Source: Tidjanibacter massiliensis (lineage in GTDB: Bacteria; Bacteroidota; Bacteroidia; Bacteroidales; Rikenellaceae). From it: DNA of 64,000 bases. The stretch's first letter is position 1. Each line of letters starts with the position of its first letter. Below are positions 22,211 to 61,258 of this stretch, piece by piece. The notes under the pieces are model-generated. The model was not told where the DNA came from and did no database searches. It worked only from the letters and a program-made list of their open reading frames with translations. The position numbers and the translations under genes are program-made. The DNA lies in the NCBI RefSeq assembly GCF_900104605.1, contig NZ_LT629960.1, forward strand, positions 1,054,001 through 1,118,000, in the 5' to 3' direction.

Positions 22211-25513
<3,303 letters not shown>

Positions 25514-55245: not shown

Positions 55246-56331
55246 TTACTTTCTGACAAGTGTTTCGCAGTAAGCGCAACGGTATGCACCCTCTTCGCCC
55301 TCGACGGGACGCATGAGCTGGGGCACGTTCTCCGAGTTGCAGATGCAGCGCTTATTGGGGCACTTCACACCTGCGGGATTCTCCTCCACGCCGACCAGCT
55401 GCGGATTCTCCATGCGTTTGTTCTCCCACTCGAACAGTTTGCAGATAAGGGCCATACGCATGAACTTACCGTTCTCTACCTCACGGAAATAAGCCGCACG
55501 CGGGTCCTTATCCACCTCCACGGCGATTTCGTTCACGCGGGGCAGCGGGTGCAGTACGGCCATGTTCTTCTTGGCGAGCTTCATCTTCTCCGCATCGAGG
55601 ATATAGGTATCCTTCAGCGCCTCGTACACGGCCGGGTCGTCGAAACGCTCCCGCTGCACGCGCGTCATGTAGAGGATGTCGAGCTCCGGCATCACGCTCT
55701 CCATATCCCGCACCTCGGTGTAGGGAATACCCGCCTCGCGCAGCTCCTCGAGCACGTGCTCCGGCATCCTCAGCTCGTCGGGCGAAATCATCACGAAACG
55801 GATGTTGTCGTAACGCATCATCGCCTTGGTGAGCGAATGTACCGTACGGCCGAATTTCAGGTCGCCGCACATACCGATGACGAGGTTGTCCAGCCGGCGC
55901 ATTTCGCGCTTGATGGTGAGCAGGTCGGCAAGCGTCTGCGTCGGATGGCAGTGCGAACCGTCGCCGCCGTTGATAATCGGTATGTCGGTCACGCGCGACG
56001 CCACGAGCGGAGCGCCGTCTTTGGGGTGACGCATGGCGATGATGTCGGCGAATTTATTGATGGTCATTATGGTGTCGGCAAGCGACTCGCCTTTCGTTAC
56101 CGAAGAGGTGCTTGCATCCGAGAATCCGAGAACATTACCGCCGAGTTCGAGCATCGCGGCCTCGAAGCTGAGGCGGGTGCGCGTACTGGGTTCGTAGAAG
56201 AGAGTGGCCAGCGTCTTGTTCTTGCATCTTTCAGTGTAAGCCGGACGGTCTGCGATGATGTCGAGCGCGAGATCAATAATCTCCTGCAGTTCCTGCATGC
56301 TCAGGTCGGTGATGTCGATAAGGTGATGCAT
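55246..56331 (-). CDS. pyrB: Aspartate carbamoyltransferase fused to a PyrI-type zinc domain
   Basis: A 361-residue protein. Residues 1 to about 305 are a complete catalytic chain for carbamoyl-aspartate synthesis: [13 protein letters not shown] (STRTR at 49-53), [15 protein letters not shown] and HPLPRVNEI are intact. A short linker leads to a C-terminal domain with Cys324, Cys329, Cys352 and Cys355, spaced C-x4-C-x22-C-x2-C. This is the zinc-binding half of the regulatory subunit PyrI (C-x4-C-x23-C-x2-C in E. coli). The nucleotide-binding half of PyrI is missing and no separate pyrI is in the window. The zinc part may hold catalytic trimers together without CTP control; that is an inference. 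It is last in the pyr run. Confidence 0.93.
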
Positions 56332-56428: not shown

Positions 56429-57148
56429 CTACCGAATCGTCCCAATCCACGACTCGTCGCGCGGATTCGCACGGAAGGCCATCAGGCGTTCGATATCTTC
56501 CGGACGTATATATCCCTGCTCGGCAGCTACCTCGACAAGGGTATCGAAGTTCGAGAGGCTGTGGTTACGCACCTCCGCTTCGCGCAGATGGTCGAGACCG
56601 GTCTGCATGCCGTACGTGAATATGCTCGCTATGCCCAGCACTTCGGCTCCCGCTTCGCGGAGCGCCTTCACCACCTCGATGCAACTGTCGCCCGTAGAGA
56701 TAAGGTCTTCTATAACAACCGCTTTCTGTCCTCTCTCCAGCCGGCCTTCGATGCGGTTCGTCCGGCCATGGTCCTTGGCGCTGCTGCGCACGTACCCCAT
56801 CGGCAGGTCGAGCAGGGTGGCCGTAATGGCCGCATGGGCAATGCCGGCGGTACTCGTTCCCATCAACACTTCGCATTCGGGATAGAGTTCCTTCACCACA
56901 CGGGCAAGGCCCGCCTCGATGTGGTCGCGCACCCGCGGTGCAGTCAGTGTCAGGCGGTTGTCGCAGTAAATCGGACTCTTTATCCCGCTCGCCCACGTAA
57001 AGGGCTCCCCGGGCCTGAGGAATACCGCCCCTATCGAAAGAAGGTCCTTCGCAATCTGTCTTTCGAGTTCTTTCAGTTCACCGGCCATGCCGCAGCAGCA
57101 CCCGGCAGCATCAGCGGGTTTCCGGTCCATTTCCAAAGCCAAATCCAT
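56429..57148 (-). CDS. pyrE: Orotate phosphoribosyltransferase
   Basis: About 219-239 residues. OPRTase adds ribose-5-phosphate from PRPP to orotate. The N-terminal pattern PFTWASGIKSPIYCDNR (about residues 48-64) and the PRPP motif AVVIEDLISTGDS (about 163-175) are typical. The first ATG gives an extra Cys-rich 20 residues (AGCCCG), so the real start may be 57088 (MAGELKELERQ), which fits the family better. It lies downstream of pyrF by about 50-110 bp depending on start choice. Confidence 0.95.
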   Translation of the reverse strand: MDLALEMDRKPADAAGCCCGMAGELKELERQIAKDLLSIGAVFLRPGEPFTWASGIKSPIYCDNRLTLTAPRVRDHIEAGLARVVKELYPECEVLMGTSTAGIAHAAITATLLDLPMGYVRSSAKDHGRTNRIEGRLERGQKAVVIEDLISTGDSCIEVVKALREAGAEVLGIASIFTYGMQTGLDHLREAEVRNHSLSNFDTLVEVAAEQGYIRPEDIERLMAFRANPRDESWIGTIR

Positions 57149-57195: not shown

Positions 57196-57897
57196 CTACT
57201 GCATCATGAACTCCTTCACGCACCGGCGGTATGCCCCCACCGGGTCGGCAGCCTCCGTGATGGGACGCCCCACCACGATGTAGTCGGTGCCTATCTCCGC
57301 CGCACGGGCCGGGGTGGTCACCCGTACCTGGTCCCCCTTCGCACCGTCGGCAAAACGGACACCGGGCGTTACGGTCACAAAATCCGTCCCGCACGCCTCC
57401 TTCACCATGCCGGCTTCGAGCGGCGAGCAGACCACGCCGTCGAGCCCCGCCTCCTTCGTATTGCGGGCATACTGCACGATGGTATCGTTTATCGGAGCCT
57501 GGATAAGCAGCTCGCGCTGCATGCGCTCCTCGCTGGTGGAGGTGAGCTGCGTCACGGCGATGAGCAGCGGCCGCGTACCGTCCGGACGGGTAAGTCCCTC
57601 CAGCGCGGCACGCATCATCTCTATCGTACCGGCAGCATGCACGTTGGTCATGTCCACGTCCAGCCGTGCGAGCACCGACATCGCCTTCTTCACCGTATTG
57701 GGAATATCGTGCAGCTTGAGGTCGAGGAATATCCTGTGACCGCGCCGCTTTATCTCCTTCACTATCGAGGGGCCCTCCGCATAGAAGAGCTCCATGCCTA
57801 TCTTCAGAAAAGGTTTCTCCTGGGTGAACAGGTCGAGAAACCGGAAAGTCTCTTTCGCGCCCGGAAAGTCGCACGCGATAATCACGTCTTTTGCCAT
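57196..57897 (-). CDS. pyrF: Orotidine 5'-phosphate decarboxylase
   Basis: A 233-residue enzyme making UMP from OMP. The N-terminal VIIACDFP (residues 5-12), the catalytic cluster [13 protein letters not shown] (Asp-x-Lys-x-x-Asp, about residues 57-69) and the C-terminal [10 protein letters not shown] motif are in place. The open frame extends far upstream, but MAKDVIIA at 57897 is the family start. A -7-like TAATTTTG at 57919-57926 could be a weak internal promoter. It follows pyrD by 98 bp. Confidence 0.96.
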
Positions 57898-57995
57898 TGT
57901 ATTTATCTGTACTTTACTCAAAATTATCATCCGTTCCACTGCCGGGGACTCCCCCGTCGGCTCCCGCCTCCGGCAGCCGTTTCCCGCACACGCTG

Positions 57996-58934
57996 TCAGG
58001 CCACCCCGATGATGTCCCGCAGGCGGGCGATTCCCAACCGCTCCATCTCGGCCGGAAGCGCCTCGATGATTTCCTTGCAGGCATACGGATTGCGCAGATT
58101 CTCGGCTCCCACCTGCACCGCCGTGGCTCCGGCCATCATCATCTCGATGACGTCGCGGGCCGTCGCCACCCCGCCGCACCCCATGACCGGAATCCGGCAC
58201 GCTTTGGCCACCTGATAAACCATGCGCAGCGCTACCGGGAAGATGGCCGGCCCCGAAAAACCGCCCATGGTATTGGCGATGACGGGCCTGCGCGTACGCA
58301 GGTCGATACGCATGCCCAGCAGCGTATTGATGAGCGTCAGCCCGTCCGCTCCACCCTCCTCGCACGCCTTGGCGATGGACACGATATCGGTCACGTTGGG
58401 ACTCAGTTTCATATATACGGGCTTTGTCGTGACGGCCTTCACGGCCCTGGTCACTTCATAGGCGCTTTCGGGTACCGTGCCGAAACTCATCCCGCCGTGC
58501 TTTACGTTCGGGCAACTGATGTTCACCTCAATGATACCCACCTGCTCCTGCGCATCGATTTTCTCGCAGCAGTAGGCGTAATCCTCCACCGAAAACCCGC
58601 TGATATTGGCCACCACCGGTTTGTGGAATATCTTCGCGATATGCGGCAGCTCCTCCGCTATCACAGTCTCGACGCCGGGATTCTGAAGCCCGACGGCATT
58701 TATCATTCCCTCGCGGCACTCCGCGATGCGGGGCGTCGGATTCCCGAAACGCGCCTCCCGCGTCGTCCCCTTGAAAGAGAACGAACCGAGTATGTCCAGG
58801 TCGTAAAACTCGGCGAATTCCGCACCGAAACCGAACGTGCCGCTCGCGGGTATCACCGGATTGTCGAGCCGGAGTCCGCTGAGCTCCACCGACATATCCG
58901 GGCGGCACGCCGTATCCATTCCTTCCATCTTCAT
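57996..58934 (-). CDS. pyrD: Dihydroorotate dehydrogenase, class 1B catalytic subunit
   Basis: A 312-residue FMN enzyme oxidising dihydroorotate. Key segments: [13 protein letters not shown], the substrate loop NAVGLQNPG, the catalytic Cys in [12 protein letters not shown] (about residue 137) and C-terminal [25 protein letters not shown]. The presence of pyrK next door shows it is the NAD-dependent class 1B type. The start at 58934 overlaps the pyrK stop by 4 bp (ATGA), which I prefer to the ATG at 58946. Confidence 0.97.
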
Positions 58935-59680
58935 CGTTCCTCCCATATGATTTCGTCCGTCGTCAGCACCGGGCCCTCCTTGCAGATACGCTTGTTGCCG
59001 TTACGCGTATGGCAGGTGCATCCCATGCAGCCGCCGAAACCGCATCCCATCCGCTCCTCGAAGCTGAACTGCCCCGGCACCCGAATGGCCCCCGACAGCG
59101 CACGGAGCATCGGCATGGGGCCGCAGGCATACACGTAATCATAATCCGTACATCCGTCCGCAAGCACATCGGTGACGAAGCCTCGCATGCCGCGCGAACC
59201 GTCCGCCGTAGCGACCGTCACATCGACGCCGAGCGCCTCGAACTCCTCGGCATAGAAGACTTCCGAAGCCGTATTGAAACCGAGCACCACCGACACCCGA
59301 CGTCCTTCGGCCAACAGCCTCTTGGCCAGGTTGTAGAGCGGAGGCACCCCCACGCCGCCGCCCACCAGCAGCGGCCGTTCGGTTTTCACGGCGGTCGAGA
59401 AACCGTTTCCCAGTCCGGTCAGCATATCGAGCTCCCCGCCCGCCGCCATACCGGCCATCTGCGCGGTACCTTCGCCGATTACCTTATAAATAAGCGTTAT
59501 CGTATGCCCGTCGTAATCGCACACCGAAATGGGTCTGCGGAGAAACCGGCCCGGCAGCTCGATGTTCACGAACTGCCCCGGCGCCGTCAGGTACTGCGTA
59601 TCGCCCTCTACCACCATCCGGTAAACCGTCTCCGTCAGCGGCTCGTTTGAACGTATCCTGTATGTCGCACGTTTATACAT
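58931..59680 (-). CDS. pyrK: Dihydroorotate dehydrogenase electron-transfer subunit
   Basis: A 249-residue FAD/[2Fe-2S] subunit passing electrons from PyrD to NAD. The FAD site reads RFLRRPISVCDYD (about residues 49-61), the NAD site GGGVGVPPLYNLAK (about 107-120), and four Cys near the C-terminus, in CGFGGCMGC and, further on, RICKEG, bind the iron-sulfur cluster. It overlaps pyrD by 4 bp and follows pyrC by 43 bp. Confidence 0.96.
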   Translation of the reverse strand: MYKRATYRIRSNEPLTETVYRMVVEGDTQYLTAPGQFVNIELPGRFLRRPISVCDYDGHTITLIYKVIGEGTAQMAGMAAGGELDMLTGLGNGFSTAVKTERPLLVGGGVGVPPLYNLAKRLLAEGRRVSVVLGFNTASEVFYAEEFEALGVDVTVATADGSRGMRGFVTDVLADGCTDYDYVYACGPMPMLRALSGAIRVPGQFSFEERMGCGFGGCMGCTCHTRNGNKRICKEGPVLTTDEIIWEER

Positions 59681-59723: not shown

Positions 59724-61016
59724 TCATGCGCCGACAATGCCGCAGCCGCCCAAGGATGCGTCGCGGTAAACCTCGCGCCCGTCCACGAGCGTCATCACGT
59801 TCCGGCCCTGCACTTCCCAGCCCTCGAACGGCGTCGCATGTCCCTTGGAAAGGAAATCGGCGCTCTCTATCCGGTACCGCGCCCCGAGGTCGAAGACGGC
59901 AATGTCGGCCGGAGCGCCCGGAGCGATTGTCCCGCCCAGGCCGAACAGCCTGCCAGGGCCGACGCTCATCAGCTCCACAAGTCTTTCGAGCGACAGAACA
60001 TCTTCCAGCACGAGACGCGTGTAGAGCACCGGGAAAGCGGTCTCCAGCCCTACGATACCGAATGCGCTGCCCGCAAGCCCCTTGGCCTTCTCGGCCTCGG
60101 AATGGGGCGCATGGTCGGTGGCAACGACCTCTATGGTACCGTCCTGTATTCCGCGGACAAGTGCGGCTCGGTCTTCGGCGCTCCGGATGGGCGGATTCAT
60201 CTTGAAGCGCCCCTCCTCCCGCAAGTCCATGTCGGTCAGCACGAGATAGTGCGGAGCCGTCTCACAGCTCACCGGAAGCCCTTCCGCCTTGGCCCTGCGG
60301 ACGAGTTCCACGCTCTCCCTGGTAGAGACATGGCAGACATGGTAGCGGCACCCCGTACGGCGAACGAGCTCGATGTCGCGCTCTACCTGCTTCCACTCGC
60401 TTTCGGAGCATATTCCCCGATGGCCGTGCAAGCGGGCATATTCACCGTCGTGTATATATCCTCCGTGCAGCAGGGAATTCACCTCGCAGTGGGCCACTAT
60501 CGGTTTGCCCAGCCGGGCTGCCTCCCGCATCGCCGCCTCCATGACAGCATCTTCCTGCACACCGCGTCCGTCGTCCGAAAAGCCGACCACCTCATCGCGC
60601 ATGGCCGCCATATCCGACAATTCCCCGCCGCCGTTCTGCCGCATGGTGATGGTACCGTAAGGAACGACCTTCACGACCGCCCCCTGTCGTATCATTTCAA
60701 GCTGCACCCCCAGATGCTCCGCCGTATCGGGCGCCGGATTGAGGTTGGGCATCGTGCAGACCGTCGTATAGCCGCCCCGGGCCGCCGCACTGCTTCCCGT
60801 AGCGATGGTCTCCTTGTATGAGAAACCCGGCTCGCGGAAATGAACATGCACATCCACCAATCCGGGCAGCAAGTGCTTGCCGGAGACATCCACCGTCTCG
60901 GCCTGCGAAACGGACAGGTCGCCCACTCCGGCCACGACGCCGTCCTCCACCAAGACATCGGCACGGACAAACGCTCCGCCGGTATACACTTTTCCCCCTT
61001 TGAGCAGCTTTTTCAT
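59724..61016 (-). CDS. pyrC: Dihydroorotase (multifunctional-type)
   Basis: A 430-residue amidohydrolase cyclising carbamoyl-aspartate. The metal motifs are DVHVHFREPG (about residues 56-65), HCEVNSL, HVSTRESVEL and ATDHAPHSEAEK (about residues 304-315). It is the first gene of the pyr run and is preceded by a leader ORF and a terminator that together look like an attenuator. Related hydantoinases and allantoinases are excluded by context and motifs. Confidence 0.96.
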   Translation of the reverse strand: MKKLLKGGKVYTGGAFVRADVLVEDGVVAGVGDLSVSQAETVDVSGKHLLPGLVDVHVHFREPGFSYKETIATGSSAAARGGYTTVCTMPNLNPAPDTAEHLGVQLEMIRQGAVVKVVPYGTITMRQNGGGELSDMAAMRDEVVGFSDDGRGVQEDAVMEAAMREAARLGKPIVAHCEVNSLLHGGYIHDGEYARLHGHRGICSESEWKQVERDIELVRRTGCRYHVCHVSTRESVELVRRAKAEGLPVSCETAPHYLVLTDMDLREEGRFKMNPPIRSAEDRAALVRGIQDGTIEVVATDHAPHSEAEKAKGLAGSAFGIVGLETAFPVLYTRLVLEDVLSLERLVELMSVGPGRLFGLGGTIAPGAPADIAVFDLGARYRIESADFLSKGHATPFEGWEVQGRNVMTLVDGREVYRDASLGGCGIVGA

Positions 61017-61072
61017 CCAGATATGTTTTTAAAAGAAATCTCCAAACGCAAGAGCGACCGGAACGCCTACCC

Positions 61073-61100
61073 AAAAAAAAGGCAGCTTGATTAGCTGCCT
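61073..61100 (-). terminator. Intrinsic terminator in the pyrC leader (attenuator)
   Basis: On the minus strand, AGGCAGCT, a 5-nt loop, AGCTGCCT, then a run of T (61080-61073). It is among the best intrinsic terminators in the window, yet it lies upstream of pyrC, 56 nt before its ATG. The stem's first bases overlap the stop codon of the leader ORF. Confidence 0.85.
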
Positions 61101-61200
61101 AAAAATTATCGGGAACGATGAGGGAAACGGCGATTGCGTAACCGGCGAAAAAGCTCTTGACACCGTTTTCCGCACGTTTATCTCTCTCCTTTTCCATCAT
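61099..61200 (-). CDS. Putative pyr attenuator leader peptide
   Basis: A 33-codon ORF beginning ATGATG about 20 nt after the predicted transcript start. It starts MMEKERDKRAENG, has a hydrophobic second half (SFFAGYAIAVSLIV) and ends PDNF-stop, with the TAG on the first bases of the terminator stem. U-rich stretches occur at AGCTTTTTC and AATTTTTAG, as in E. coli pyrBI, where UTP-sensitive pausing lets the ribosome reach and block the hairpin. Whether it is translated, and whether it acts this way, is an inference; it could instead be a small independent membrane peptide with its own terminator. Confidence 0.6.
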   Translation of the reverse strand: MMEKERDKRAENGVKSFFAGYAIAVSLIVPDNF

Positions 61201-61227
61201 CTCGTTTTCGTATCGCTTAAATTGGGA

Positions 61228-61258
61228 CAAAGTTAGCACATTTCATACTCGATTCAAA
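61228..61258 (-). promoter_or_regulatory. Promoter of the pyr operon
   Basis: On the minus strand, TTTG (61258-61255), 19 bp, then TAACTTTG (61235-61228): consensus at both elements. The predicted start near 61221 leaves a leader of about 205 nt before pyrC. Confidence 0.8.

Follow-up and report, generated by a model that had tools for sequence, protein, structure and literature searches.

How does a pyrimidine biosynthesis operon make use of a terminator that stands between its promoter and its first gene? The question is raised by a leader on the minus strand of the window (the whole 64,000-nucleotide stretch of DNA analysed here), for which the original prediction, made from the letters alone, had proposed translation-coupled transcription attenuation of the kind known from pyrBI/pyrL in Escherichia coli.

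The pyr leader and the operon behind it

The promoter upstream of the leader ORF has the -33/-7 form of the Bacteroidetes promoter (TTG N19 TAACTTTG), placing the likely transcription start near 61222. A terminator scan returned an 8-bp stem (AGGCAGC TAATCAA GCTGCC) followed by eight T, with a stem hairpin energy of -11.2 kcal/mol in the window. Its first two bases are also the A and G of the TAG stop codon that closes the leader ORF, and the pyrC ATG is found at 61016, 56 nt past the T run. Promoter, 33-codon ORF, overlap of terminator and stop codon, and distance to pyrC had all been described in advance, and base for base correctly (Table 1). A pirin gene is located upstream of the promoter on the same strand.

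Table 1. Features of the pyr leader and operon in the window
Feature	Position	Strand	Basis and remarks
Bacteroidetes-type promoter	61228-61257	-	TTG 61257-61255, 19 nt spacer, TAACTTTG 61235-61228; sequence
Predicted P1 5' arm (5' UTR and leader start codon)	61184-61211	-	Duplex -17.8 kcal/mol, z -0.02 in window
Leader ORF, 33 codons	61099-61200	-	Peptide MMEKERDKRAENGVKSFFAGYAIAVSLIVPDNF*; stop TAG 61101-61099; short 5' UTR before ORF
U-rich tract, immediately 5' of terminator stem	61101-61140	-	35% U in window; family mean 42%
Predicted P1 3' arm, inside U-rich tract	61109-61134	-	Duplex with 5' arm -17.8 kcal/mol, z -0.02 in window
Intrinsic terminator	61073-61100	-	Stem 61100-61080, T run to 61073; terminator scan
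pyrC, dihydroorotase, first structural gene	59724-61016	-	TIGR00857 over cut-off
pyrK, dihydroorotate dehydrogenase electron transfer subunit	58931-59680	-	Best NCBIfam match NF000799, E 2.6e-72, below curated cut-off
pyrD, dihydroorotate dehydrogenase	57996-58946	-	NF005574 and TIGR01037 over cut-off
pyrF, orotidine-5'-phosphate decarboxylase	57196-57900 (start somewhere inside)	-	TIGR01740 over cut-off
pyrE, orotate phosphoribosyltransferase	56429-57148	-	TIGR00336 over cut-off
pyrB, aspartate carbamoyltransferase with C-terminal PyrI_C zinc domain	55246-56331	-	TIGR00670 over cut-off; PF02748

The operon, pyrC-K-D-F-E-B, encodes all steps of UMP synthesis starting from carbamoyl phosphate. 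Neither carA, nor carB above cut-off, nor uraA was found in this genome (G000), and carA was also missing in six of the seven other congeners tested. A carbamate kinase gene (arcC) is present over cut-off. Together with the lack of carA and of carB above cut-off, this suggests that the carbamoyl phosphate used for pyrimidines may have a source other than CPSase. The PyrI_C zinc domain of PyrB covers residues 322-359, and the PyrI nucleotide-binding domain is missing, so that nucleotide feedback on the enzyme itself may be absent. The gene upstream of pyrG in this genome extends nearly to the pyrG start, leaving no space for a leader there. For the PyrC matches of genomes G004 and G021 (leaders L012 and L014) one in-frame TAG was reported, which may merely be the gene end read through.

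Conservation of the layout and of the reading frame

A PyrC search found the gene in 22 further congeneric genomes and in two from a second genus of the family, which gives 25 leaders, counting the window. Alignment was used to gather named relatives, of which 20 Bacteroidota-labelled loci were screened, adding leaders from Alistipes muris, other Alistipes, Porphyromonas canoris and uncultured Bacteroidales. The order of promoter, short ORF, terminator and pyrC was found in 40 leaders including the window (25 from the PyrC search and 15 from the named relatives), as had been predicted for relatives; it is missing in five of the 20 screened loci (L030, L066, L083, L086 and L099). The TAnnTTTG box is present in all 40 leaders, and the -33 TTG in most. 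No such leader was seen in the Clostridia PyrC relatives that were looked at. Upstream of pyrB in other Bacteroidales families, three loci (L138, L141 and L146) have terminators and nearby short ORFs in no uniform pattern; in L146 the short ORF apparently extends through the terminator.

The leader ORF is unlikely to be a product of chance. For the 35 leaders with an automatically found stem, the sequence from promoter to stem was shuffled with dinucleotides kept, and an ORF was scored if it began with ATG, had at least 20 codons and stopped within -11 to +10 nt of the stem. Such an ORF is present in 33 of the 35, compared with 3.2 expected from the shuffles. The frame of the first ATG in L072 and L097 passes through the terminator, as it does in the pyrL leader of E. 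coli. Because the set includes near-duplicates (L013/L015, L023/L026, L054/L078 and L059/L087), its effective size is nearer 30.

The original prediction had also anticipated synonymous-biased change in the ORF, and this was not borne out: no clear bias was observed when close pairs were pooled (pS 0.23, pN 0.16, pN/pS about 0.7), and the window leader differs from its nearest relative with pS 0.14 and pN 0.19. The frame and the position of the stop hold in close pairs while the peptide changes nearly at the rate of silent sites, so that the open reading frame, and not the peptide sequence, appears to be under selection. The lack of a clear synonymous bias is what would be expected of a coupling device whose peptide has no function. 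Since the peptide is without clear purifying selection, the frame test is the sole evidence for translation of the leader.

The promoter-ORF-terminator shape would equally fit a separate small gene with a terminator of its own, pyrC being served by another promoter. We consider this highly improbable. None of the 40 leaders has a TAnnTTTG box between terminator and pyrC, and in four leaders the gap is only 15-21 nt. With no box in between and little room in those four, transcription most likely enters pyrC by reading through the terminator. Furthermore, the peptide is not conserved, and the stop codon lies closer to the terminator than in ordinary genes of this genome, which keep at least 23 nt. 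On these three grounds the reading was rejected.

The spacing was examined in a sample of 864 kb (36%) of G000, taken as two sets of 20 stretches. None of the 37 strong terminators located after ORFs of at least 150 codons begins less than 23 nt downstream, counted from the stop codon's first base, whereas the stem of the pyr leaders begins about -10 to +11 nt relative to the stop. In E. coli reporters, ribosomes were found to silence almost completely a terminator placed a few bp past a stop codon, and its strength recovers with distance and is full beyond 27 nt (PMC4824070). Ordinary genes in the sampled genome thus stay clear of the interval in which the pyr leaders have their terminators. 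A short distance between stop and terminator has served as a sign of uncoupled, or runaway, transcription (PMC7858274). By this measure the genome looks as if its transcription and translation may be coupled, and the same possibly applies to the genus.

The sampled 864 kb contain 15 promoter-terminator pairs, and only that of pyr has an ATG leader ORF of at least 15 codons reaching the stem. A 14-codon ORF (MVFFYIVEPVVKRR) on the minus strand of the joined stretches L187 and L237, at position 22255, follows a promoter box and stops 6 nt before a terminator-like stem; no further layout of this kind occurs in the sample.

Candidate signals and pairing within the leader

A leader ORF followed by a terminator is also what an amino-acid attenuator of the trp/his type would present, where a ribosome stalling at scarce codons toggles between antiterminator and terminator. 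However, no regulatory codon run was found, most leaders being without a residue run of three, and upstream complementarity to the 5' arm of the stem does not exceed chance (mean z +0.16, 35 leaders). With both defining features, codon run and antiterminator, absent, this reading was rejected as the least probable of those considered.

Translation-coupled attenuation of the pyrimidine operon is strongly supported by sequence comparison. As a signal, UTP is probably what is sensed. The last 40 nt before the stem contain 42% U compared with 22% in the earlier leader (35 scored leaders), and runs of at least three U are four times denser there, while C is not enriched. The enrichment is modest in the window itself (35%), and three leaders (L013, L015 and L020) have no U-rich end. 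UTP-dependent pausing at pyrBI was reported by Donahue and Turnbough in 1994, as cited in PMC9291695, and the U-rich tract would fit pausing of that kind.

A translation-coupled attenuator could instead sense general translation capacity, i.e. ribosome supply, growth rate or ppGpp. The layout requires coupling only, the U-rich tract is the one element tied to UTP, and the three leaders without it would be accommodated more readily. Against this, every instance of the layout seen stands ahead of a pyrimidine operon, with no other in the 864 kb, and it is U and not C that is enriched exactly where the polymerase must slow. We regard sensing of general capacity as rather unlikely, though as the strongest competitor of UTP sensing.

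In minimum-energy folds of most leaders, the 5' UTR and the start codon pair with the U-rich tract, a predicted long-range helix (P1) that was absent from the original prediction. Compared with segment-wise dinucleotide shuffles, the duplex of the 5' and 3' segments has a mean z of -1.61, with p<0.05 in 20 of the 40 leaders; control duplexes were no stronger than shuffles (5' with middle +0.32, middle with 3' +0.28). Because RNAalifold on clade alignments missed P1 in some clades, an arm-swap permutation was chosen, in which the 3' arms were exchanged among 34 leaders, near-duplicates left out. Own arms pair at -19.9 kcal/mol and swapped arms at -14.3 kcal/mol (z -8.5, p at most 1e-5), p values in this test being optimistic because related sequences do not share arms independently. 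The test was also positive inside two clades (p 0.0002 and 0.0005), and gave p 0.30 within the window's own clade. P1 of the window (-17.8 kcal/mol) is no stronger than its base composition gives, and six leaders (L054, L072, L074, L075, L078 and L084) carry no P1 signal. In 35 of the 40 leaders the AUG of the ORF is partly or fully paired. Co-changing arms are exemplified by TATGACCA/TGGTCGTA in L016 compared with TATGACTA/TAGTCGTG in L018, and by TGACAGAAG/CTTTTGTCG in L012 compared with TGACTCAAG/CTTTGGTCA in L021.

For the leader of E. coli K-12 pyrL (L209), a duplex between the ribosome-binding site and the U-rich tract is likewise predicted (-28.6 kcal/mol; z -2.7 and p 0.009 from shuffles of this one sequence).

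A structured domain that P1 could enclose, together with folding of the leaders that is slightly more stable than in shuffled sequences (mean z -1.4), could point to a riboswitch, to PyrR or to another repressor controlling the terminator, with the ORF being incidental. No conserved core was seen inside P1, however, and no Rfam family reached its gathering score in the leader, the best matches (18.2 and 17.4 bits) lying far below. PyrR was over cut-off in none of 10 genomes, although six control genomes pass the same cut-off; the original prediction had noted that the PyrR-binding consensus is absent. The ORF, moreover, is present in 33 of 35 leaders. On these grounds the PyrR and riboswitch readings were rejected, and control by any such factor seems improbable.

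A model for the leader and its relation to known attenuators

Our preferred explanation, to which we give a probability of roughly 0.8 from sequence comparison, is that the pyrC-K-D-F-E-B operon is controlled by translation-coupled transcription attenuation in the manner of E. coli pyrBI/pyrL. The proposal in its original form is mostly supported, by the layout in 40 leaders, the failed part being synonymous bias. When UTP is plentiful, RNA polymerase would cross the U-rich end of the ORF fast, with no ribosome close behind; the terminator would fold, and the transcript would end at a length of about 150 nt. At low UTP, the polymerase would slow in the U-rich tract and the ribosome translating the leader could catch up. 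Positioned at the stop codon, i.e. at the foot of the stem, this ribosome would keep the terminator from folding and the operon would be transcribed.

P1 may add to this as a lock on leader translation, as the folding predictions suggest. In this less certain refinement, a U-rich tract made with no ribosome aboard would pair with the start region, shutting off leader translation and locking in termination. The tract would then be both sensor, where the polymerase slows at low UTP, and lock, as the P1 strand that pairs with the start region; the UTP level would determine how long a ribosome has to start on the leader. E. coli pyrL may be built in this way too, and we know of no description of such a design there. 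We put this forward tentatively and hold it to be rather less probable than its alternatives taken together.

The leader shares with E. coli pyrBI/pyrL the promoter, the leader ORF, the U-rich stretch and an intrinsic terminator that a ribosome could cover ahead of pyr genes; neither has an antiterminator or regulatory codons, and both are predicted to pair the start region or ribosome-binding site with the U-rich tract. The phylum, the promoter type and the operon (pyrC-K-D-F-E-B here, pyrBI there) are different. The ORF described here is 33 codons long and stops at the foot of the stem, PyrL is longer (44 codons) and continues through the terminator nearly to pyrB, and the two peptides have no evident similarity. 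Tight coupling across PyrL is required in E. coli to block formation of the terminator (PMC5021804). The trp, his and leu attenuators also combine a leader ORF with an intrinsic terminator, but differ in their regulatory codon run and antiterminator. The PyrR-dependent pyr attenuators of Bacillus likewise have a leader terminator ahead of their pyr genes; here, in contrast, no PyrR and no antiterminator were found, and a predicted translated ORF spans the leader. To our knowledge, UTP-sensing translation-coupled attenuation is known from enterobacteria only.

Within the same phylum, leader-peptide attenuators, likewise a leader ORF with a terminator, have been proposed for Flavobacterium psychrophilum, where they precede amino-acid operons and no pyr case is described (PMC9723704). 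No pyr attenuator of the present type in Bacteroidota was found in the open-access literature searched, a search beyond whose reach most subscription papers lie. We thus found no earlier report from this phylum of an attenuator of the pyrBI kind.

Should the proposed reading hold, pyrimidine synthesis in a dominant gut phylum would be controlled through the coupling of ribosome and polymerase. It would also be evidence for transcription-translation coupling in Bacteroidota, at a time when such coupling in bacteria generally is debated, and the pyr leaders would be a natural reporter for that question. Furthermore, the pairing of the start region with the U-rich tract suggests a kinetic design that is open to direct testing.
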